From Corynebacterium canis (GTDB lineage: Bacteria > Actinomycetota > Actinomycetes > Mycobacteriales > Mycobacteriaceae), in NCBI RefSeq assembly GCF_030408595.1, contig NZ_CP047080.1, positions 680,471-744,470 of the forward strand: DNA of 64,000 bases, written 5' to 3'. Shown here one piece after another: positions 2,425-13,480 of the stretch. The number at the start of each line of letters is the position of its first letter. The stretch's first letter is position 1. The notes under the pieces were generated by a model, which ran no database searches, was not told the DNA's origin, and was given only the letters and a program-made list of their open reading frames with translations. The translations under genes and the position numbers were made by a program.

Positions 2425-3810
2425 ATGCTGGCTTCGGTTTTGGAACCCACTTCCACAGTTGCGATTGTTCTACAAGTTGTGGTCATTTTGGCCTGCCTGC
2501 TTCGTGGAACTCACTACGGTGGAATCGGACTTGGGTTAATATCCGGTTTTGGTCTGCTGATCATGGTGTTCATCTTCGGCTTGGAGCCGGGCGAACCGCC
2601 TGTATCGGTCATGTTGACCATTATCGCGGTGATCGGCTGCGCATCCGCGCTGCAGCAATCACAAGGGCTCGACGTGATGATGCAATTTGCGGAAAGACTC
2701 CTGCGCAAGAAGCCGGAGATGATTACGATCATGGCGCCGTTGACCACGTGGACGCTGACCGTGCTCTGCGGCACCGGCCATGTGGTGTACACGATGTTCC
2801 CGATCATCGAGGACATTGCGATTAAGAAGAATATCCGTCCCGAGCGCCCCATGGCGGTGGCGTCTACGGCATCGCAGATGGGCATTACGGCCTCGCCCGT
2901 CTCGGTGGCTACGGTATCGTTGGCTTCTATCCTGGCCGAAAATGCGGGGATCACGGGAAAGGCGTTTTCAATTCCGCAAATTCTTACCGTGGCAATTCCG
3001 GCTTCCTTGTGCGGTGTTCTCTTGGCTGCATTATGGTCCATGCGCCGCGGCAAGGATTTGGACAAAGACGAAGAGTTTCAGGAACGGCTTAAAGATCAGA
3101 CGTTCCGGGACGCCGTATACGGTTCCGGCGAAACGCTTTTGGACAAAGTATTTCCCCGCTCTGCCTATAATGCGGTGATTATATTCTTTGTTGCCATTGG
3201 CCTCGTTGTTATTCTCGGCGCCTTTGAAATGCTCCGCCCAGAATTCCCCGGCAAAGACGGCGGCATGGAGCCGCTTTCCATGAACCTGGTGATCCAGATG
3301 CTGATGCTGGTCGCCGGCGCGACCATCCTGATCTTCTGCCACGTGGACAATAGCAAGATCGCATCCACCGCCGTGTTTAAGGCGGGCATGACCGCGGTGT
3401 TTTCCGTGTTCGGCGTCGCCTGGATGGCGGATACGTTTTTCCAAACCCACGTGGAGGCGCTGGAGGGCAGCCTTGGTTCCGTGGTGCAGCAGGCACCGTG
3501 GGCATATGCGCTGGTGCTGTTCGTGGTGTCCAAGCTGGTGAATTCGCAGGCGGCGGCGTTGGTGGCTATCGCCCCGATCGGCCTGCAGCTAGGCGTGGCG
3601 CCGGAGGTGCTGGTCGGGTTCTATGGCGCGGCGTATGGCTACTTTATCCTGCCCACGTACCCGTCGGATCTGGCGTGTATTGGGTTCGACCGCACCGGCA
3701 CGACCCGCATCGGCCGGTTTATTATCAACCACTCCTTTATCATTCCGGGTTTGATCGGCGTGATCACCTCCTGCGTGGTCGGCAGCCTGCTGGCCCAGGT
3801 GTTTTTATAG
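2425..3810 (+). CDS. anaerobic C4-dicarboxylate transporter, DcuA/DcuB family
   Basis: A 461-residue integral membrane protein with about ten hydrophobic segments. The region CGTGHVVYTMFPIIED followed by RPERPMAVASTASQ, near residues 115-150, is characteristic of DcuA/DcuB carriers, which exchange fumarate, malate or aspartate for succinate under anaerobic conditions. The length fits the family (about 430-450). The start at 2425 follows GGAAGG at 2411-2416. It lies between hypAB and the hydrogenase structural genes on the same strand, so it could supply fumarate as electron acceptor for H2 oxidation; that link is inferred from position. A strong hairpin follows its stop. Which substrate is preferred cannot be read from the sequence. 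Confidence 0.88.
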   Translation: MLASVLEPTSTVAIVLQVVVILACLLRGTHYGGIGLGLISGFGLLIMVFIFGLEPGEPPVSVMLTIIAVIGCASALQQSQGLDVMMQFAERLLRKKPEMITIMAPLTTWTLTVLCGTGHVVYTMFPIIEDIAIKKNIRPERPMAVASTASQMGITASPVSVATVSLASILAENAGITGKAFSIPQILTVAIPASLCGVLLAALWSMRRGKDLDKDEEFQERLKDQTFRDAVYGSGETLLDKVFPRSAYNAVIIFFVAIGLVVILGAFEMLRPEFPGKDGGMEPLSMNLVIQMLMLVAGATILIFCHVDNSKIASTAVFKAGMTAVFSVFGVAWMADTFFQTHVEALEGSLGSVVQQAPWAYALVLFVVSKLVNSQAAALVAIAPIGLQLGVAPEVLVGFYGAAYGYFILPTYPSDLACIGFDRTGTTRIGRFIINHSFIIPGLIGVITSCVVGSLLAQVFL

Positions 3811-4067: not shown

Positions 4068-5258
4068 ATGGATTTCGGCACAAGTTGGCAGGGTTCTTCC
4101 TTGCGCGAAAACCTGGAGCGGCGGGGGGTATCGCGCCGTGATTTTATGAAGCTCTGCGGCGGGCTCGCAGCTTTGTTCGCGTACGGTGTTCCGGAGGTTC
4201 CGAAAGCCCATGCGGAAGAGATATCCACCCAGGCCCAGGAGATCGCCGATAAGCTCGGCGCGGTGGAGAAGCCGAACGTGGCGTGGCTGCAATTGCAGGA
4301 GTGCACGGGCTGCATGGAGTCCGTGTTGCGTTCGGGCGGCACCACCGTGGAGGATTTGGTGCTGGGCATGCTGAGCATGAACTATAACGAGCTGGTGATG
4401 GCGGCTTCCGGGGAGGCGGCGGAGAAGGCGTTGCATGACCTGAACGAACAGCCGCATATTTTGGTGGTCAACGGTTCTGTGCCGGTGGACGAGAACGGCG
4501 TGTTTTGCATGATTGGCGGCAAAACGGCTGAGCAGGTGCTTCGCGACGCCGCGGCCAACGCCACTGTGATCCTCGCGGTGGGCGCCTGCGCGGTGTATGG
4601 TTCGGTGCAGGCTGCGCGTCCGAATCCGACGGGCGCGGTGGGGGTGGATGAGATTATTCGGGATAAGCCGGTGATCAATGTGTCCGGCTGCCCGCCGATC
4701 GGCGAGGTGATCACCGCCACCATTACGTATGTGCTCACGCATGGCACGGCGCCGAAGGTGGATGCGGAGGGGCGTCCGTTGTTTGCCTACGATCAGCGCA
4801 TCCACGATTCCTGCCCGCGGCGTGCGCATTTCGACGCCGGGCAATTCGTCCGTTCCTTCGACGATGCGGGCGCGCGCAACGGGTGGTGCCTCTATGAGGT
4901 TGGGTGCAAGGGACCGTCCACGTTTAGCCCCTGCCCGATCATCCAGTGGAATTTGAAGTCTGGCTGGCCGATCGGGGCGGGGCACCCGTGCATCGGGTGC
5001 ACGGAGAAGGATTTCTTTGATAAGTTCACCCCGTTCTATGCCACGTTGCCGCATGTTGTGGGCGTGGGGGTAGAAGCGAGCGTCGAAAAGCTGGGGTGGG
5101 GTCTTGTTGGTGCCGCTGCTGCGGGTGCGGCTGTCCACGCGGGCATTACGGCCGTGCGGAAGTCGCGGCACCGCGAGGATGAAGAACTTTTGGCGGCCTT
5201 CGGCGAACCCGTGCCGCTGCCCATGCCCACCGTGCCTGGAAAGGAAACTGAGCAATAA
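4068..5258 (+). CDS. hyaA: [NiFe]-hydrogenase small subunit, Tat-exported
   Basis: The electron-transfer subunit of a membrane-bound hydrogenase. A twin-arginine signal, SRRDFMK at residues 22-28, precedes a hydrophobic stretch and an AHA cleavage site near residue 49, so the folded heterodimer should be exported. Cluster ligands are visible: ECTGC (residues 78-82), GAC, SGCPP, then HDSC, GWCLYEVGC, SPCP and HPCIGC. The proximal motif is CTGC-x-E-S, without the extra cysteine of the oxygen-tolerant CTCC type, so a standard 4Fe-4S cluster and oxygen sensitivity are expected. A C-terminal membrane helix (about residues 345-365) anchors it. The 396-residue length is usual. AAGGA stands before the ATG; the stop overlaps the large-subunit start by one base. 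Confidence 0.95.
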   Translation: MDFGTSWQGSSLRENLERRGVSRRDFMKLCGGLAALFAYGVPEVPKAHAEEISTQAQEIADKLGAVEKPNVAWLQLQECTGCMESVLRSGGTTVEDLVLGMLSMNYNELVMAASGEAAEKALHDLNEQPHILVVNGSVPVDENGVFCMIGGKTAEQVLRDAAANATVILAVGACAVYGSVQAARPNPTGAVGVDEIIRDKPVINVSGCPPIGEVITATITYVLTHGTAPKVDAEGRPLFAYDQRIHDSCPRRAHFDAGQFVRSFDDAGARNGWCLYEVGCKGPSTFSPCPIIQWNLKSGWPIGAGHPCIGCTEKDFFDKFTPFYATLPHVVGVGVEASVEKLGWGLVGAAAAGAAVHAGITAVRKSRHREDEELLAAFGEPVPLPMPTVPGKETEQ

Positions 5259-7003
5259 TGGCCGAACGCGTTGTCATTGACCCGTTGACCCGGATCGAGG
5301 GGCACCTGCGCATCGAATTGGAACGCGAAGGCGATTCCATTGCGAAGGCGTGGAGCGAAACCACCCAATTCCGCGGCATCGAAACCATTGTTGAGGGGCG
5401 CGACCCGCGCGATGTGTGGGCGTTCGTCGGACGTATCTGCGGCGTGTGCACCGGCACCCACTCCGTCGCCTCGATCACCGCGGTGGAGGATGCCATCGGG
5501 TCGAAGCCGCCGGTGCAGGCGCAGCTGATCCGGGATCTGGTGATGGCCAGCCAGGAGGTGCACGACCATGTGGTGCACTTCTACCACCTGCACGCGCTGG
5601 ACTGGGTGAACGTGGTATCGGCGGCGGAGGCGGACCCGGCAAAGGCCGTGGAATTCGCAAAGTCTATCGGATCCAAGTGGGTGGGCAATTCCGAAGAAAA
5701 GTTCGCCCGCGTGAAGGAGACGCTGCAGGGCGTGCTCGCGTCCGGGCAGCTTTCCATTTTCACCGGCGGGTATTGGGATCACCCGGATTACCGGCTGCCC
5801 CCGGAGGCGAACCTGATGGCGGTTTCGCACTACCTGGATGCGCTGGAATTCCAGCGTTCAATTATCCGGGTGAACACCGTGTTTGGCGGCAAGAACCCGC
5901 ACCCGAACTTCCTGGTCGGCGGCATGGCGTGCTCCATCGATCCGAATAAGTCGGAGACGGTGAACCAGGTGCAGCTGGACCAGATCGGCTCGTGGGTCGA
6001 TGAGATCGTGGACTTTGTGGAGCACTGCTACTATCCGGACGCGGTGGCCATTATGTCCGTGTACAAGGATTATTTTGATATCGGGGCCTCCTCGCCGAAT
6101 TTCTTGGCGGTGGGCATGTCTGGGACGCGGTATGCGGGGGACGTCGATAAGCAGCCCGTGTCTAACACAAACAGGTCGGTGAAGCCGGGCGTTATTTTGG
6201 ACGGCGACTACACCAAGGTGCACCCGCTGGAAATATCCAAAATCCGCGAATACATTTCCTCCGCCTGGTACGTCTACCGCGACGGCGATTCCGCTGGCGT
6301 GCACCCCGCGGTCGGCGAGACGAAGGTGAAGTACACGGGCCCGCAGCCGCCATACACGTGGCTCGCCGACAACGATAAGTACACGTGGTCGAAGGCCCCG
6401 CGTTACGACGGCCGCCCGATGCAGGTCGGCCCGATCGCTCGCGTGCTCTCCGCCTATATCCAGGGCGAGGAACTGACCAAAAAACTCGTCGACGAGGCGG
6501 CGGCGAAGCTGGGCATCAAGGTGGAGCAGCTGAATTCCACGGGCGGCCGAACCTTCGCACGCGCTGTCGAGGCGATGACCAATGCGCACCACCTTTCGGA
6601 AGAGTTGCTGCCAAAGTTTATTGAGGGCCTGCGGCACGGCGACTACAACGTGTTCGACCCCACCAAATGGGAGCCCTCCTCGTGGCCGCACAAGGCGGAT
6701 GGTTTCGCCCTGCAGGAGGTGGCGCGCGGTTGCCTGAGCCACTGGGTGAGCATCGAAGACGGCAGGGTGCGCAACTACCAGGCGGTGGTGCCAACTACCT
6801 GGCTGGCCGGCGGGCGCGACCCGCAGGGCAATATGGGGCCGTACGAGGAATCATTGGCGGGCAATGGAAAGCACCCGCTGGTGGACCCCGAACAGCCATT
6901 GGAGGCGCTGCGCACCATTCACAGCTTCGACCCGTGCATGTCCTGCGCAGTGCACATCATGGACGAGGACGGAAATATCCAGGTGCAGGTGGTCACGCCA
7001 TGA
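5258..7003 (+). CDS. hyaB: [NiFe]-hydrogenase large (catalytic) subunit
   Basis: It carries the NiFe(CN)2CO site that splits H2. The N-terminal motif is RICGVCTGTH (Cys61 and Cys64) and the C-terminal motif is DPCMSCAVH (Cys560 and Cys563), so all four metal-binding cysteines are present. The 15 residues after His566 form the tail normally cut off by the endopeptidase encoded at 8175. The 581-residue length fits group 1 membrane-bound uptake enzymes. Having no signal peptide, it must be exported together with the small subunit. Its start overlaps the small-subunit stop (TAATG) and its stop overlaps the cytochrome start (ATGA), pointing to translational coupling. Confidence 0.96.
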   Translation: MAERVVIDPLTRIEGHLRIELEREGDSIAKAWSETTQFRGIETIVEGRDPRDVWAFVGRICGVCTGTHSVASITAVEDAIGSKPPVQAQLIRDLVMASQEVHDHVVHFYHLHALDWVNVVSAAEADPAKAVEFAKSIGSKWVGNSEEKFARVKETLQGVLASGQLSIFTGGYWDHPDYRLPPEANLMAVSHYLDALEFQRSIIRVNTVFGGKNPHPNFLVGGMACSIDPNKSETVNQVQLDQIGSWVDEIVDFVEHCYYPDAVAIMSVYKDYFDIGASSPNFLAVGMSGTRYAGDVDKQPVSNTNRSVKPGVILDGDYTKVHPLEISKIREYISSAWYVYRDGDSAGVHPAVGETKVKYTGPQPPYTWLADNDKYTWSKAPRYDGRPMQVGPIARVLSAYIQGEELTKKLVDEAAAKLGIKVEQLNSTGGRTFARAVEAMTNAHHLSEELLPKFIEGLRHGDYNVFDPTKWEPSSWPHKADGFALQEVARGCLSHWVSIEDGRVRNYQAVVPTTWLAGGRDPQGNMGPYEESLAGNGKHPLVDPEQPLEALRTIHSFDPCMSCAVHIMDEDGNIQVQVVTP

Positions 7004-8178
7004 GCACCAAAGTGATTCGCGTGGCCACCAGTTACCCCGTGCGCAAGCTCAGCCCGGGGCGGCTGCTGGCCATGGCGGCGGTATCGCCGGAAGGGTCCCA
7101 GGATCCGGTGGATATGGCGCTGGACGCCTCGCTGAAAGTGAACCGCCCCGATATTACGCCGACGTTTACCAGCGATTTTAGCCCGGCCAGGCCGCAGCGG
7201 AAATATTCGCTGGCGCAGGTGGAGCTGCCCCAGGTGGGGCACGTGATGGTGATGCGGGGCGACCTGCAGGCCGTCATGGAGCAGGCGAATATGACGCGCG
7301 AGGAGCGCGCCTTGATCGTCCGCAACGCCGATATCCAGGACAAGGCGGGGCGCCGTTGCCTCGCCGTGGCGCGCGCGGATATCGCCCCCGATGGCACGGT
7401 GGGGGAGTACTACATGGAAGGGTTTGTGGCGCTTTCGCTGGAAAACCCGCAGGAGCTGGCCTCCAATGTTGCCGCGAACCCCAATGAATGGGTGCGCGTA
7501 AATATCTGGTCCGCCACGCTGCGCTTCCAGCACTGGGCGAACATGGTGCTGATCGTGCTGATGAGCCTTTCCGGGTACTACATCATGCGCCCGTTCTTCG
7601 GCCCGGCGGCGGAGGCCGGCCCGGACGTTGGCTATCTCATGGGGTGGATCCGGATGATCCACTATGTGTCGGCGTTTTTGTGGCTGGGGCTCGGGTTTTC
7701 CCGGCTGGTGTTGAGCTTTACGGCGAAGGACCGGCAGCTGCGGTGGCGTTCGCTGTGGCCGCTGAATTCCAAGGAGGACGTGAAGAACCTGTGGGGGACC
7801 ATGCAGTACTACATGTTCCTGCGCAAACACGGCCCGCTGTACTTGGCGCATAACCCGCTGCAGCAATTGTCCTATACGGGCATCTATGCGATGTGCTTTA
7901 TTCAAATGCTTACCGGGTTGATGCTGTACGGCCTGTATCACCAGGACAATATGTTCTGGATGCTGGTTTCTTACCCGGTGCACTGGTTTGGCATTCCGGT
8001 GATCCGGCTGATTCACTCGCTGATCATGTTTATCTTGTGGGCGTTCGTGTGGCTGCACGTATATTTGGCCATTCGTGCGGACGCCTTGGAGCGCCACGGC
8101 GGCGTGTCCTCCATGTTTAACGGTGGCGTGTGGTTGCGCCGCGGCGCCCGCCCCGTGGATGCCCCGGAGATCGGATGA
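7000..8178 (+). CDS. hydrogenase cytochrome b subunit with an N-terminal P-type-ATPase N-domain-like extension
   Basis: Residues about 168-380 form a b-type cytochrome of the HyaC/HupC kind, with four main membrane segments and histidines placed for heme (RFQHW near 178, MIHY, RLIH, WLHVY). It should pass electrons from the small subunit to menaquinone. Ordinary HyaC proteins are about 230 residues; this one has 392. The extra N-terminal part lacks membrane segments and recalls the nucleotide-binding domain of P-type ATPases: LLAMAAVSPEGSQDPVDMAL, then FSPARPQRKYS, then VMRGDLQAVMEQA where ATPases have xxKGAPxxxxxx, then AGRRCLAVARAD, then YYMEGFVAL. The usual adenine-site Lys is Arg here. 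The start at 7000 gives an ATGA overlap with the large subunit. Confidence 0.85.
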   Translation: MSTKVIRVATSYPVRKLSPGRLLAMAAVSPEGSQDPVDMALDASLKVNRPDITPTFTSDFSPARPQRKYSLAQVELPQVGHVMVMRGDLQAVMEQANMTREERALIVRNADIQDKAGRRCLAVARADIAPDGTVGEYYMEGFVALSLENPQELASNVAANPNEWVRVNIWSATLRFQHWANMVLIVLMSLSGYYIMRPFFGPAAEAGPDVGYLMGWIRMIHYVSAFLWLGLGFSRLVLSFTAKDRQLRWRSLWPLNSKEDVKNLWGTMQYYMFLRKHGPLYLAHNPLQQLSYTGIYAMCFIQMLTGLMLYGLYHQDNMFWMLVSYPVHWFGIPVIRLIHSLIMFILWAFVWLHVYLAIRADALERHGGVSSMFNGGVWLRRGARPVDAPEIG

Positions 8179-8690
8179 TTGTCCTTGGCATTGGCAACCC
8201 GATCATGGGCGATGACGGCATCGGCCTGGCCATTATGCGGCGGTTGCGCGCGGCCGCGGATGCGCCGGTGGATGACCTTGATTGGGTGCCCAGCCGGCAC
8301 AGCGTCGCAGCCGAAGATACTGTCGAATTCATCGATGGCGGCACGAGCGGCATAGAGCTGCTTCCGGTGATCCAACAGGCCGAAGATTTGATCGTTTTGG
8401 ACGCCGTTGCCGCCCCCGGTGCCGCCCCCGGTACGGTGGTGGTGCTCGAGGGCGATCAGGTGCCGCGCCTGCTTAATTCCAAGTTGTCGCCGCACCAGGT
8501 CGGCCTGCTGGACCTGCTGGCCACGGCGAAGTTATTGGGCCACGAGCCGCGCCGGGTTGCGGTGGTGGGTATTGTGCCCGCCTCTGCCGAGCTCCACGTC
8601 GGGCTTAGCGACGCCGCGCAAAACGCCCTCCCGAACGCGGTTGCGGCCGCGCGGGAGGTTATGGATCGGTGGCGAGATCCACATAGGTGA
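8175..8690 (+). CDS. hyaD: hydrogenase maturation endopeptidase (HyaD/HycI family)
   Basis: This protease cuts the C-terminal tail from the nickel-loaded large subunit. The 171-residue protein starts MIVLGIGNPIMGDDGIG, the family signature with the acidic residue that senses nickel; FIDGGTSGIEL supplies the second acidic ligand, and LSPHQVGLLDLL the histidine. The ATG at 8175 overlaps the stop of the cytochrome gene (ATGA), so the four genes from 4068 form one coupled operon. Its 3' end overlaps by 32 bases, tail to tail, the second hypA on the opposite strand. Confidence 0.93.
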   Translation: MIVLGIGNPIMGDDGIGLAIMRRLRAAADAPVDDLDWVPSRHSVAAEDTVEFIDGGTSGIELLPVIQQAEDLIVLDAVAAPGAAPGTVVVLEGDQVPRLLNSKLSPHQVGLLDLLATAKLLGHEPRRVAVVGIVPASAELHVGLSDAAQNALPNAVAAAREVMDRWRDPHR

Positions 8691-8985
8691 TCTCGAATTC
8701 CCGCCCGTGGCGCAGGTCCGCGGTCGGGGTGCCACACGCCGGACAGGTCAATGCGAAAAATTCATCGATTTCCTGCTCGCAGGCACAGCTGGGGCAGAAC
8801 ACGGTGGCGGGGATGAGCTCTAATACGAGTTCGCCTTCGCCGACCACCTGCCAGGCGGCGTAGAGGGCGTCTTCGACCACGCCCGAGCGGGTGCCTACCC
8901 GCAGTGCGACGCGTAGAATGGGGCGGTCACCAGCGGCTTTCTTTGCGGCGCCGATGACACCAGTGAGCAGGCCAAGTTCATGCAC
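8659..8985 (-). CDS. hypA: second HypA nickel-insertion protein, complete zinc site
   Basis: A 108-residue HypA. The GTG at 8985 gives the family start (M)HELGLL, and both zinc pairs are intact: CPSC near residue 70 and CPAC near residue 88. It runs opposite to all its hydrogenase neighbours. Its start faces the HupK-like gene at 9012 across only 26 bases, and its end overlaps the protease gene by 32 bases. It differs strongly in sequence from the first HypA at 341-670, so it is not a recent duplicate; each copy may serve a different target, for example the large subunit and the HupK-like protein. The Shine-Dalgarno site is weak. Confidence 0.88.
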   Translation of the reverse strand: MHELGLLTGVIGAAKKAAGDRPILRVALRVGTRSGVVEDALYAAWQVVGEGELVLELIPATVFCPSCACEQEIDEFFALTCPACGTPTADLRHGREFEITYVDLATDP

Positions 8986-9011
8986 ACTCTCATTATGGAA
9001 AGGCTTTAGCC

Positions 9012-10043
9012 ATGAGTACAACCTTGCGGCTCGACCACTTTCTGGACCCGTTCGAGGCCCGCGTCGTGGTCACCGAGCACGGACCTAGGTTCGACCTTTC
9101 CGCCCTGCCGCGGCTGGACCATATGCTGCTTGGCCGCAATGTGCTTGAGGTGCCCGATATAGTGAAGCGCCTGTGCGGGATTTGCCCGGTGACGCATCAC
9201 TTGGCGGGCATGCGCGCCCTAGATAGCTTGTTCGATGCCCCGCCCCCGCCGGCCGCCCGGAACGTGCGCGCGCTGCTGCATTATGGCTCGGTGCTGGACG
9301 CCGTGGCCCCTAAGCTATTTGGCCACGCGCCGGAGCGCGCCGTGGAGCTCAAGCGCTTTGGCAAGGCGGTGTTGGCGTTAGCGGGCTGCCCGGGGCATTT
9401 CCCGGACGTGGCGATCCCCGGCGGCGTGCGGGAGCCGCGTCTTGGGTCGCTCGAGGTTCCCGAACCTGTGTTCGTTCCTGATTTGGATTGGGAGGATGGT
9501 TTTACGGGCCTTTCCCTCCGCCTGGAAACCGAAGGTGAGTTCGACCCGCTCGGTGGCTGGTTGTCCACGGGCGAACCCGTCGCCGAATGGCCGCAGCTGA
9601 TTACCGAGACCGACCCCGACCAGCCCGCCCCGCGCCCGCTCTACCGGGGTCGCCCGTACCGCGTGGGCCCGCTGGCGCAATTCGGTTCCATGCACCCCCT
9701 GGCCGCGCAAGCCACCCAGCTTAATCACGCATTAGCCCAGGTCAAACGCCTTCTCCGCGCCGATTATTCCGGCCCGTGGGTCACCCCCGGCAGCTTGCGC
9801 GACGGCACCGGCGTGGGGCTTGTCGACGGCCCCCGTGGCATCCTCGCCCACGTATATACGGCCGCCGATGGGGTGCTGGTTTCTTGCCAAATCCTGACGC
9901 CGACCGCGCAAAACGAACCCTGGTTGGCGGCTATGCTCGGTGCCCTTGATCCCGAGGCGGCGATTCGCGCCGCCGATCCGTGCCTGCCCTGCACCTCGGC
10001 CCCGGAGGGCCAAATGAACGTTAGGACCGTCCCATGTGCCTAG
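9012..10043 (+). CDS. orphan hydrogenase large-subunit-like protein, possible HupK/HoxV-type scaffold
   Basis: A 343-residue relative of [NiFe] large subunits, well short of catalytic subunits (450-600). It keeps an L1 motif, RLCGICPVTHH (Cys55, Cys58), closer to the RICGICPVxH of soluble group 3 enzymes than to its neighbour, and an L2-like motif DPCLPC (Cys324, Cys327). The residue three places after the last cysteine, His or Arg in maturing subunits, is Ala here, and the protein ends 16 residues on, so protease processing is doubtful. No partner small subunit is nearby. It overlaps hypC by 10 bases. HupK/HoxV are large-subunit-like scaffolds for the Fe(CN)2CO unit, and that role fits the position best; it is inferred. 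Confidence 0.75.
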   Translation: MSTTLRLDHFLDPFEARVVVTEHGPRFDLSALPRLDHMLLGRNVLEVPDIVKRLCGICPVTHHLAGMRALDSLFDAPPPPAARNVRALLHYGSVLDAVAPKLFGHAPERAVELKRFGKAVLALAGCPGHFPDVAIPGGVREPRLGSLEVPEPVFVPDLDWEDGFTGLSLRLETEGEFDPLGGWLSTGEPVAEWPQLITETDPDQPAPRPLYRGRPYRVGPLAQFGSMHPLAAQATQLNHALAQVKRLLRADYSGPWVTPGSLRDGTGVGLVDGPRGILAHVYTAADGVLVSCQILTPTAQNEPWLAAMLGALDPEAAIRAADPCLPCTSAPEGQMNVRTVPCA

Positions 10044-10270
10044 GAATCCCCGCGAAGATTATCGAAATTACGTCCGGACCGCTGCCTCATGCGGTGCTCG
10101 ATTTCGCAGGCCAAAACCGCGCCTGTTCCTTGGCGTATGTCCCCGAGGCTCAGGTCGGGGACTATGTCCTCATTCAGAACGGCTTTGCGATGTCTATTAT
10201 GGATGAAGCGTCTGCGCTAGAGTCATTGGCCACAATCGAAGAATTCAACCTAATTCAGAGAGATCTATAA
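10034..10270 (+). CDS. hypC: hydrogenase assembly chaperone HypC/HybG
   Basis: A 78-residue protein beginning MCLGIPAKI, with the essential Cys2 that binds the Fe(CN)2CO intermediate from HypD and hands it to the large-subunit precursor. The beta-barrel pattern GDYVLIQNGFAMSIMDEASALESL is typical of the family. Its start overlaps the HupK-like gene by 10 bases, so the two are probably co-translated. Its HypD, HypE and HypF partners are not in the window and must be encoded elsewhere, perhaps upstream. Confidence 0.95.
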   Translation: MCLGIPAKIIEITSGPLPHAVLDFAGQNRACSLAYVPEAQVGDYVLIQNGFAMSIMDEASALESLATIEEFNLIQRDL

Positions 10271-10324
10271 GTTCTTAGCTCCGGGTGGAGTTCTATAGGA
10301 TCTGCTCCACCGAAAGGAGTTTGT

Positions 10325-11443
10325 ATGACCCAACGCAACCCCTTCCGACCGAGTTTCGGCGTTTCGCCCCTGTATTTGGCTGGCCGCGAGGAATCCCTGC
10401 AGGACTTTCGCCTCGGATTGGCAGAGGGCCTCGGCAGCCCCTATCGCGCGCTCCTTGTTTCCGGAGCTCGCGGCATCGGCAAAACTGTGTTCCTCAATGA
10501 GGTTGAAGACGTAGCCACCCAAGCCGGATGGGTGGTGGCCCGCGCCTACCCCGACGCTCACCTCGTGGATACCCTAGTGGACTCCACCATTCCCAAAATC
10601 ATGAAAAGTCTTGGGGAAACCGGCAGCAAGCACAGCTTTACCGGCGCCTCCATCGCGGGCATCGGTTCAATTTCTACCTCTGTCCAAGCCGCCGAGCAGC
10701 CCGCGCCCACCCTGATTTCCCGGCTCCGCGAACTCGCCACATTCGTACGCAAGTACGAGGCCGGGGTGCTCGTTACCGTGGATGAGGTGCAAAGCGCCGA
10801 CCCCGAACTCATGCATCAGCTGGCCACCGCCGTCCAAGACCTAATCCGCGACGAGTTCGATATTGCGTTCGTGGCCGCCGGCTTGCCGCTGGGCATTCAG
10901 CAACTCCTCCAACACGATGGCACCACCTTTCTGCGCCGCGCCGAACGCGTGGAACTCGCGCCCGTGACCATTCCCGAGGCCCGCCAGGCGATCGTGCATA
11001 CCGTCCACGAGGGCGGCAAAAGCATTACTGACGACGCCGCGGACGCCGCCGCCGAGCTCAGCCAAGGGTATCCGTACCTCATCCAGCTCGTCGGTTCCGT
11101 GATCTGGACCTACGCCACCCTCGAACACCGAGACGAGATCACCCTGAGCGATGTGCGCGAAGCCCGCCCCCAAGTCATTCGACGCATGGGTGCCCAAGTG
11201 CACCGGCCCGCGATAGCCAATGCGCCCGATAGCCAAGTGGCCATGCTCAAAACCATGGCCACCCTTATGGACGGCGACAATCCCGTATCCACCGGCGAGC
11301 TCGCCAAGGCCCTCGGCGTGAAACCGAACGCGATATCGGTGCGGCGCGCCCACCTGCTCGCCCGCGAACTTATCGTCTCCCCCCGCTACGGTCACATCGC
11401 CTTCACCCTGCCCTATATGAAGGAATTCTTGCTCAGCACTTAA
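10325..11443 (+). CDS. AAA-family ATP-binding protein, function unknown
   Basis: A 372-residue predicted ATPase. The P-loop is SGARGIGKT (near residues 46-54) and the Walker B is VLVTVDEVQ (near 150-158); the helical lid region with YPYLIQLVGSVIW follows. The last 80 residues look like a winged-helix domain (STGELAKALGVKPNAISVRRAHL). This is the layout of small AAA/STAND-type proteins annotated simply as ATP-binding protein and often linked to mobile or defence loci, but no partner gene is visible. AAAGGAG lies 5 bases before the ATG. A hairpin, GGTGGAG (10284) with CTCCACC (10305), sits in the leader after hypC. Not assigned to the hydrogenase. Confidence 0.8.
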   Translation: MTQRNPFRPSFGVSPLYLAGREESLQDFRLGLAEGLGSPYRALLVSGARGIGKTVFLNEVEDVATQAGWVVARAYPDAHLVDTLVDSTIPKIMKSLGETGSKHSFTGASIAGIGSISTSVQAAEQPAPTLISRLRELATFVRKYEAGVLVTVDEVQSADPELMHQLATAVQDLIRDEFDIAFVAAGLPLGIQQLLQHDGTTFLRRAERVELAPVTIPEARQAIVHTVHEGGKSITDDAADAAAELSQGYPYLIQLVGSVIWTYATLEHRDEITLSDVREARPQVIRRMGAQVHRPAIANAPDSQVAMLKTMATLMDGDNPVSTGELAKALGVKPNAISVRRAHLLARELIVSPRYGHIAFTLPYMKEFLLST

Positions 11444-12490
11444 CGCTGGAACGGCCCTTGCCCTCGCGCCGCCGCCGAACCCCCTAGCCACCACGGCCGT
11501 AACAAGCGCCCCAGCTTCACAGCTAAAGAAGTGCACGTCCCATACGATCCCACATACCCCCGCACACCCTCGTACCCCCGCCCGCGAAATCTGCCTGCGT
11601 TACCTGCCGTGTCAGATGTGCCTGAGGCAGATTCGTCGCGGCTGCGTTTCCCCAGGACAACTCGGCCGAAAAATCAGGCAGATCCGGCGGAGCCAGGCAG
11701 ATGTGACGGGGCCGGACAGCAGCCAGGCAGATGTGACGGGGCCGGACAGCAGCCAGGCAGATTGTACGTGGCTGGTGAGTGCGGGTTCCGGTGGTTCACA
11801 ATCGATGTCGTTGCAACGTGTTCGAGGCGGCCGTGACCTATCGCAGGCACGAGTGAGCTGCCCCTGCGGCATGGGGTGGCATTTGGTACTGAGGATCTGC
11901 CTGGTTTCTTGCCGCGTCAGATCTGCCTGAGGCAGATGTAACACGGCCGTTTCGTGTTCCTGCGGAAACACCACCGCGCGCCGAGCGGCATGTCGAATCT
12001 GCCTGAGCATGGTAAATCGCCGGCCCTGAGCGCGGAAAATTCCGGCCTCCAACTCGCCACATCACCTGGCGTGACGGTGAGAATCTGCCTGCGGTGCCTG
12101 CCGTGTCAGATCTGCCTGAGGCAGATTCGTCACGGCCGCATTTCCCCAGGAAAACTCGGCCTAAAAACCAGGCAGATCTCGTGCGGCCAGGCAGATGTGA
12201 CATAGCAGGAGCGCGAACAGGCAGATTTGACGTAGCTGGGGAAAGCGGGAGCTTCAGCTACGCGTAGTTTGCAGGGAGCTGCGGGCAGACGGAAGTGGCG
12301 CGGCTGGCGCGGCGTGAGAATGGGCCGGGGTGCGCCGGGTTTCGGGCTCACCGAAAAGTGTGGGCGCGCACCAATGGGGCAGGTCGGCGAGCAAGTCGCA
12401 GTACTGGGGTGGTGCAGCGAGGATTCGGCGTTAAAGTTCGGCGCTAGGATTCGCCGTAAGGATTCGGCCCGTCGGATTCGGCGTGAGGAT
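11444..12490. other. 1.05-kb non-coding region rich in family A fragments
   Basis: No gene was recognised. It contains several complete or partial family A repeats in both orientations (about 11611-11684, 11908-12010 inverted, 12100-12200), many scattered CAGGCAGAT words, a 30-bp tandem pair at 11701-11760 and degenerate GGATTCGGC repeats at 12419-12515 reaching into the end of the next gene. Palindromic TCTGCCTGAGGCAGA cores appear near 11625, 11925 and 12115. Confidence 0.65.
11701..11760 (+). repeat. exact 30-bp tandem pair
   Basis: Two identical 30-base units (11701-11730 and 11731-11760), each containing GTGACGGGGCCGGACAGC and ending CCAGGCAG, the family A core word. A third start (ATTGTACG) follows but diverges. 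Confidence 0.95.
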
Positions 12491-12515
12491 TCAGCCGTTC
12501 GGATTCGCGTCGGGT
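12419..12515 (+). repeat. degenerate GGATTCGGC repeat
   Basis: Six loosely spaced copies of (A/C)GGATTC(G/A)(G/C)C with gaps of about 10-17 bases. The last copies form the 3' end of the DUF559-like gene on the minus strand, where they encode its Ala/Asn/Pro-rich tail. Confidence 0.6.
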
Positions 12516-13480
12516 TTTGGCGCGTGTGTGTTGGTTTCGGCGCGGTGGATGGCGCGGCGCAGGGTGGTGATCAATTCGCGGGGTTTTTGCAGTAGCCCGT
12601 GGGTGATACGCAGTGGTTCCCAGCCGAGTTCGCGTAGCCGGATCAACACTTTGGCATCGTAGTCACGTTGGCTGCGTTGGAGGTGGTGGGCACCGTCGTA
12701 GAACAAACCAACACGAATATCGGGCCAGCCGGAATCAAGCACGGTCAGCAGGGGTGTGCCGTCGTCGACTAGCGCACCGGAATCATAGATTGGGATTTGT
12801 ACCTCCAGGTGTTGGCGCAGCTGCTCGGCAATCAGGCGTAGTACGGTTTCCGGGGGCGACTGGGCCCCTGTGCGGGATAGCTTCAGCAGTTTTTTCAGCT
12901 GGCGGGCGCTGAAAATATTGCGGGCGATGTCACGCACCAGCTGAAAGTTCAGTGTGGTGCATGCGCGCAGCGCGTCAATCAACTGGATGGCGCGGACTTC
13001 CCAGTTGGCAAGGTTGGGTACTTGGTAGACCCACCAGGAGTGGCGGTCGCGCTGCAGATCAATCAGGCAATCCACCAGGGCGTATTCGGGGGCGACGACC
13101 TGCATGCCGGGCAGTTCCTGGTCCGGTGTCCACACCCTGGTGCCTGGTCGCAGTCTGCGGCGGGTGGCGTCGAACACGCTGTGGCTGCGTTGGAAATTAC
13201 TGGCCACATGCACGGTGATGTGGGCATCATCCACCCAGTACTTCAAACCGGCATAGGCTGCGGCGGCCCAGCCGCCGATAATGACATTCGGGGTTTGGGT
13301 GAAATGCGCCCGAGCCCGCAACATGATCGGGGCGGCAAACCCCAGGCGTTGCGGGTGATACCGCGAACCCCACTCCACCTCCCGGCTCGCCCGACAATAC
13401 CCACGCGGCATGGCAAGCCGACGAGTGATGTTGATGAAAGAGGTATCAAGCAGTTTGGTGCGACGCTGAAACAAACCCAT
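12491..13480 (-). CDS. DUF559/Vsr-like domain protein, hypothetical
   Basis: About 329 residues. The C-terminal part (SPPETVLRLI, VLDSGWPDIRVGLFYDG, HH, QRDYD, LRELGWEPLRIT) matches the pattern of actinobacterial DUF559 proteins, which have the fold of very-short-patch-repair nucleases; the usual acidic residue before YDG is Phe here, so nuclease activity is doubtful. The N-terminal part (YHPQRLGFAAPIML and TPNVIIGGWAAA) resembles the helix-rich region found with AbiEi-like proteins. The start is uncertain: ATG at 13480 (MGLFQRR) is used, ATG at 13534 is also possible. Both flanks are repeat-rich or empty, so it sits alone as a likely accessory gene. Confidence 0.6.
   Translation of the reverse strand: MGLFQRRTKLLDTSFINITRRLAMPRGYCRASREVEWGSRYHPQRLGFAAPIMLRARAHFTQTPNVIIGGWAAAAYAGLKYWVDDAHITVHVASNFQRSHSVFDATRRRLRPGTRVWTPDQELPGMQVVAPEYALVDCLIDLQRDRHSWWVYQVPNLANWEVRAIQLIDALRACTTLNFQLVRDIARNIFSARQLKKLLKLSRTGAQSPPETVLRLIAEQLRQHLEVQIPIYDSGALVDDGTPLLTVLDSGWPDIRVGLFYDGAHHLQRSQRDYDAKVLIRLRELGWEPLRITHGLLQKPRELITTLRRAIHRAETNTHAPKPDANPNG

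Follow-up and report, generated by a model that had tools for sequence, protein, structure and literature searches.

The locus considered here raises the question of what stands in front of the membrane part of a hydrogenase cytochrome b, and what it might do there. The stretch analysed (the window) comprises 64,000 nucleotides of the 3.05-Mb chromosome of Corynebacterium canis (contig NZ_CP047080.1, positions 680,471 to 744,470), and its open reading frame hyaC (7000..8178, + strand) encodes a [NiFe]-hydrogenase b-type cytochrome of 392 residues. An earlier note, made from the sequence, had likened the N-terminal part of HyaC to the nucleotide-binding (N) domain of P-type ATPases, and profile searches, fold comparison and a tree of N domains all bear this out. 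HyaC is a hydrogenase cytochrome b with a complete, hinge-to-hinge P-type ATPase N domain at its N terminus (residues 1-148, 7000..7443, + strand), followed by a linker (residues 149-163, 7444..7488, + strand) and a four-helix cytochrome b domain (residues 164-392, 7489..8175, + strand), the last read from a full-length structural model. The N domain is closest to that of the P3A H+-pumps.

Residues 22-145 of HyaC matched positions 319-439 of TIGR01647, the P-type H+-ATPase model of NCBIfam, with E 1.3e-5 when all of HyaC was scanned and E 1.9e-6 for an isolated piece of 166 residues. The score was 26.4 bits against a cut-off of 615.5 bits set for full-length proteins, because only the N-domain stretch is present. 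At E values up to 10 the same model matched 8 of 15 corynebacterial domains, that of the window included (best E 2.2e-8). Profile alignment with hhalign of 57 Actinomycete-type HyaC domains to 22 pump N domains gave a probability of 97.7 (E 1.5e-12, 138 columns), and 75 Geobacteraceae-type rows gave 99.8 (E 3.4e-29) against the same pumps; five column-shuffled controls all remained below 1%. Alignment of the Actinomycete domains to the cytochrome alignment (31%, E 5.1e-4, 14 columns) was taken as noise. Pfam, the library that the earlier note had named, returned no P-type match in any of the 15 corynebacterial domains at E 10. The outcome that would have refuted the earlier note, lack of both a profile and a fold match, was nevertheless not obtained. 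A 15-row domain profile run against the PDB sequences (up to E 10) gave 13 rows, 12 of them P-type ATPases, and is suggestive only (best E 0.026, none below 0.001); a single-sequence phmmer search of the window's domain against the PDB sequences gave no match, nor did a PHROGs scan.

The fold of the P-type ATPase N-domain family was found as well. Residues 1-162 aligned with residues 379-546 of Pma1, and the full-length model (predicted local distance difference test, pLDDT, 87.9) matched both Pma1 and the E. coli hydrogenase-1 cytochrome b (4gd3_A). The domain therefore starts at about residue 1 and not at about 20, as first given; the N-domain motifs lie where they had been located. Chance resemblance to P-type ATPases was ruled out by the shuffled profile controls together with the fold. 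Matches to GlmU (NCBIfam, best E 9.1e-4) and ExbD (E 0.0069) were rejected, as neither was among the 50 listed fold matches. In line with the earlier note, motifs of the phosphorylation (P) and actuator (A) domains are absent: no DKTGT phosphorylation site, TGES actuator motif or GDGxxND was found in the 392 residues. Since the phosphorylation domain is missing, we infer that neither a pump cycle nor self-phosphorylation would occur.

The layout of HyaC from Citrifermentans bremense (L135, P0122) is identical to that of the window's protein. Its first 163 residues matched TIGR01647 with E 1.7e-13 and the P3A pump AHA2 (5ksd) with E 7.9e-4, and residues 1-165 matched the P-type ATPase fragment P0233 with E 1.6e-13 (35% identity). 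In genome searches, residues 12-154 of Geobacteraceae HyaC matched pump-sized frames with E values down to 3.8e-19 (36% identity).

The distribution of the fusion was followed at several taxonomic levels. Matches were obtained in 22 of 101 Corynebacterium genomes, that in G036 being weak; a HyaC frame was read from the other 21, with the domain in 19 and without it in G039 and G097. Counted by profile match, and not all read singly, 39 of 242 Corynebacterium genomes contain the domain (E <= 9e-42); the next best match (3.3e-6) lies in a 772-residue frame. A domain-spanning match was found in 3 of 298 genomes at the level of the order. In the class, one of 394 genomes has the fusion and ten more match in the cytochrome part only (E <= 1.1e-40; in one of these genomes the match lies at a contig edge). 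A search of named genomes was restricted to the best 80 of 268 relatives; the domain is present in 55 of these 80 HyaC loci, one of which is interrupted by a contig end. Apart from one record with a Bacillota label, the fused loci belong to Actinomycetota and Geobacteraceae; they include Corynebacterium, Propionibacteriaceae, Bifidobacteriaceae, Cellulomonas, Mobiluncus, Arcanobacterium, Nocardioides and Citrifermentans. The fusion sought in other actinobacterial hydrogenase loci was thereby found, and its occurrence in Geobacteraceae extends it beyond the Actinobacteria. The 25 loci without the domain are 20 from Gemmatimonadota, four from Corynebacterium (L124, L125, L127 and L141) and L123, which starts at a contig edge. 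Within the family of Citrifermentans 12 of 48 genomes have the fusion, and within its phylum 2 of 345; most Desulfobacterota HyaC among the matches listed have no N domain. The Bacillota-labelled record (L110, Tissierella sp. Marseille-P2918) carries a HyaC that groups with that of Mobiluncus curtisii in the cytochrome tree; the record may be mislabelled or contaminated, or the gene may have been transferred.

A degenerate N domain hidden in unfused HyaC was sought with three profiles on the N-terminal stretches (best E 0.019) and by reading L129-L163, and nothing convincing was seen. Some Corynebacterium operons encode an unfused HyaC among the same neighbouring genes, which makes the N domain a separable module. 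A protein search scored on the 7998 candidates with the most shared words yielded a list of 108 proteins; most were fused HyaC (385-409 residues), and seven were shorter than 240 residues. Four proteins of 223-237 residues (P0220, P0228, P0231 and P0232, two of them named as Geomonas proteins) consist of an N domain and one hydrophobic helix. They are 44-50% identical to the N domain of Citrifermentans HyaC and differ from it in stopping after that helix, with no cytochrome part and no Pfam domain listed; possibly they are membrane-anchored stand-alone N domains. A search with P0228 in 47 genomes of the Citrifermentans family gave only frames at least as long as HyaC and pumps, and no separate short N-domain frame.

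A quick cytochrome tree was built from 90 rows (54 fused and 36 of 60 unfused, the other 24 unfused being dropped). On it the fused label requires six changes, one of which is a contig-edge artefact (L119), and many forks are weak. Unfused Corynebacterium HyaC (L020/L026 and L021) are nested among fused rows, which makes two or more losses likely; the unfused Gemmatimonadota stand beside the group of Geobacteraceae and L128. In a tree of N domains, 35 chosen HyaC and 23 pump domains were split by a single branch with support of 100/100, long branches being present. The same unrooted tree sets the Geobacteraceae-type rows, L128 and the pumps against the remaining Actinomycete rows, and a grouping of the Actinomycete rows with the pumps was not rejected (approximately unbiased test, p-AU 0.31); one fusion event or several may underlie the distribution.

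The N domain is under purifying selection. The ratio of nonsynonymous to synonymous substitution rates (dN/dS) was estimated by the Nei-Gojobori method for 22 pairs, some of which share a row and are not independent; several dS values lie near or above 1, and the ratios are rough. Two pairs were saturated; the 20 finite ones gave a median of about 0.12 (range 0 to 0.59), with 19 below 0.32.

The nucleotide pocket was compared in 133 non-redundant HyaC N domains (58 Actinomycete-type, including L128, and 75 Geobacteraceae-type) and 22 P3A-like pumps, near-identical rows (at least 85%) having been removed before counting. The pump genes of the window's own genome (L033/L200 and L034/L201, each present twice) were omitted from the pump sets as more distant types; L034/L201 also has no KGAP Lys. 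Pocket positions were assigned by alignment only, and all coordinates are on the + strand. Asp38 (7111..7113), which we take to be the equivalent of SERCA Glu442, is the conserved Asp/Glu of the pumps and is Asp in 126 of 133 HyaC. The position of the adenine-stacking Phe, presumably that of SERCA Phe487, is Ala63 in the window (7186..7188) and is Phe in 22/22 pumps and in only 4/133 HyaC; Actinomycete-type domains mostly have Ala there (51 of 58), Geobacteraceae-type domains Pro or Leu (65 of 75). Arg86-Gly87 (7255..7260) stand at the Lys-Gly of KGAP, Arg86 being taken as the counterpart of SERCA Lys515; the Arg noted there earlier is found in 132/133 HyaC (Lys in 22/22 pumps), and the Gly in 133/133. 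Arg119 (7354..7356), by our assignment SERCA Arg560, is Arg in 120/133 HyaC and in 22/22 pumps. Of the residues typical of the N-domain family, the Arg560 equivalent is thus present, and the stacking Phe and the KGA(P) Lys are not. P1B pumps likewise do without the adenine-stacking Phe. Over 148 positions of the 133 HyaC domains, Gly87 ranks second in conservation, Arg86 fourth, Asp38 eighth and Arg119 thirteenth. Phe487 and Arg560 of SERCA are described as nucleotide anchors (PMC3203174), and the bacterial equivalent of Arg560 is given in PMC11977196, which also cites a study of Thr441, Glu442, Lys515, Arg560 and Leu562. With Asp38, Gly87 and Arg119 kept, a ligand is plausible, though not necessarily ATP or ADP; with the stacking Phe lost and Lys changed to Arg, HyaC and the pumps probably differ in their ligand or in how it is bound.

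In the cytochrome part, residues 170-375 matched PF01292 (Ni_hydr_CYTB) with 86.9 bits (cut-off 30.1) and TIGR02125, the [NiFe]-hydrogenase b-type cytochrome model, with 131.1 bits (cut-off 121.5). The model has long helices at 172-196, 208-241, 286-311 and 332-364, and H178, H221, H284, H339 and H353 are invariant in 35 fused HyaC rows; four helices with conserved His, encoded beside hyaA and hyaB, are as expected of a b-type cytochrome. From the family we infer that HyaC would hold two b hemes and reduce quinone. Lys/Arg and Asp/Glu number 8 and 3 in loop 2, 4 and 2 in the C terminus, 1 and 1 in loop 1, and 0 and 1 in loop 3. As loop 2 and the C terminus are positive, the positive-inside rule puts both termini, and hence the N domain, probably on the cytoplasmic face, a placement that draws on charge pattern and homology only and fits the one first proposed.

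The reading we prefer, to which we would give an even chance, is that the N domain serves as a cytoplasmic regulatory module of HyaC for a small ligand that carries phosphate. This ligand, a nucleotide or a metabolite resembling one, would bind on the Asp38/Arg86/Arg119 side of the former ATP pocket, the occupied or empty state would be relayed through the linker of about 15 residues to helix 1 and the strand 164-168, and electron transfer to quinone, or the stability of the complex, would be tuned by it. Hydrogen use may in this way be controlled by an intracellular small molecule. The conserved pocket charges, the selection, the cytoplasmic placement and the separability of the domain argue for a ligand-responsive regulator. 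A wider version, that the N domain was reused in two phyla as a cytoplasmic sensor giving allosteric control of the hydrogenase from the side opposite the active site, and that its altered pocket recognises not ATP but, for example, a phosphorylated metabolite, an alarmone or a cyclic dinucleotide, is more tentative and stands at somewhat below even. Several points weigh against a ligand-responsive module. Nucleotide binding could be lost with the stacking Phe; the core positions A26, G141 and A124 are conserved as strongly as the pocket, whose charges might instead serve in a structural salt bridge; the cytochrome has a lower dN/dS than the N domain in 14 of 20 finite pairs; and the linker has lower model confidence (pLDDT 65 for the block 151-160 of the full-length model), which makes any placement of the N domain on the membrane part tentative.

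The rival that survives best, if rather unlikely, is a docking or assembly module that binds no small ligand and offers a cytoplasmic surface to a partner protein, which might be a second HyaC, a maturation factor or a reductase that uses quinol. The replaced Phe would be accounted for, maturation genes adjoin hyaC in most loci, and pump N domains are also described as contacting the A domain (PMC11977196); however, three of the most strictly kept residues are at pocket positions, and no conserved extra partner gene is known from the loci, which were compared for the window's own genes only. A classical ATP/ADP sensor as in the pumps, tying H2 oxidation to energy charge, is improbable. Asp38, Gly87 and Arg119 are retained, the fold is intact and the charges indicate the cytoplasmic side, but the Phe487 equivalent is found in so few HyaC (4/133), and the Lys515 equivalent is Arg in so many (132/133), that the energy-state sensing put forward in the earlier note was not established; loss of the Phe in particular speaks against simple sensing of ATP. 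Still less probable is a neutral relic, or a tag for membrane insertion or stability with no specific role: the domain is indeed missing from Corynebacterium L020, L021 and L026, from the 20 loci of Gemmatimonadota and from most HyaC among the Desulfobacterota matches listed, but dN/dS is below 0.6 in 20/20 finite pairs and the pocket pattern is common to Actinomycetes and Geobacteraceae. An annotation or assembly artefact joining two genes has a negligible chance, nothing having been found in its favour, and was ruled out by independent genomes, a single uninterrupted frame being read in 19 of 21 corynebacterial HyaC, 55 of 80 named loci and 12 of 48 Citrifermentans-family genomes.

The ATG of hyaC overlaps the stop codon of hyaB (ATGA). 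The operon includes hyaA (4068..5258, + strand), encoding the hydrogenase small subunit (PF14720, PF01058) with an RRDFMK Tat-type motif read in the sequence; the Pfam Tat model scores 11.7 bits there, below its cut-off, and the motif would be consistent with export of a hydrogenase facing out. It continues with the large subunit HyaB (5258..7003, + strand; PF00374, E 2.1e-203), HyaC and a HyaD/HycI-type maturation protease (8175..8690, + strand; PF01750). Then follow a maturation protein (8659..9021, - strand), which we take to be HypA-like from its CxxC pattern rather than from a family-library scan and whose place is kept in most loci, and a short large-subunit relative of 343 residues (9012..10043, + strand; partial PF00374, E 1.2e-13), presumably HupK-like, which adjoins the operon in most Actinomycete loci. 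The locus comparison looked for the window's own genes only. The order hyaA-hyaB-hyaC-hyaD with hypA and the hupK-like gene is kept in most Actinomycete loci long enough to judge, and is the same in the unfused Corynebacterium loci L124, L125, L127 and L141. Exceptions include L073 (Corynebacterium mendelii, 5566-13197), where some 5 kb separate hyaC from the hyaD and hypA matches on its 3' side; L085, where hypA and the hupK-like gene differ in position and orientation; and L079, where the hupK-like gene precedes hypA. Within the stretch covered, no separate hupK-like match was found in L087 and L094, and L135 and L128 have matches, among the window's genes, to hyaA, hyaB and hyaC only. A DcuA/DcuB-type C4-dicarboxylate carrier is encoded directly 5' of hyaA (2425-3810, + strand), hinting at H2-fumarate respiration; within the stretch covered it stands beside the operon in only 2 of the 80 named loci, the nearest relatives L071 and L072. 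Two tandem repeats lie 3' of an AAA ATPase gene, at 11691-11762 (30-base unit, 2.4 perfect copies) and 12421-12508 (27-base unit, 3.3 copies).

Each half of the fusion has known counterparts. HyaC of E. coli hydrogenase-1 (4gd3; Foldseek E 9.1e-6 for 4gd3_A) resembles residues 164-392 in its TIGR02125/PF01292 family and four helices, but its solved chain, 179 residues in the library, is too short for such an N domain. In the P3A plasma-membrane H+-ATPases (Pma1, 9ugb; AHA2, 5ksd) the N domain is attached to the P, A and pump membrane domains, all absent from HyaC, where in addition the KGAP Lys is Arg and the adenine-stacking Phe is replaced. The nucleotide-binding domain of the Mg-ATPase (3gwi) is a separate piece of 164 residues from a pump, not a natural cytochrome fusion. 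Among the papers listed by full-text searches of the open PubMed Central (PMC) library, some of the listings being covered in part, none describes the fusion in its title or at the start of its abstract, in line with the earlier note; subscription papers and preprints lie outside this scope. We know of no natural N domain described outside P-type pumps, and to our knowledge regulation of membrane-bound uptake hydrogenases by a cytoplasmic ligand-binding domain is not known. For binding studies the family offers N domains that occur in nature without a pump and its cycle, and fused and unfused versions of one operon occur naturally within a single genus. Should the N domain sense a metabolite, the state of the cell would act directly, at the level of the enzyme itself, on H2 oxidation in Geobacteraceae and in anaerobic or facultative Actinomycetes.

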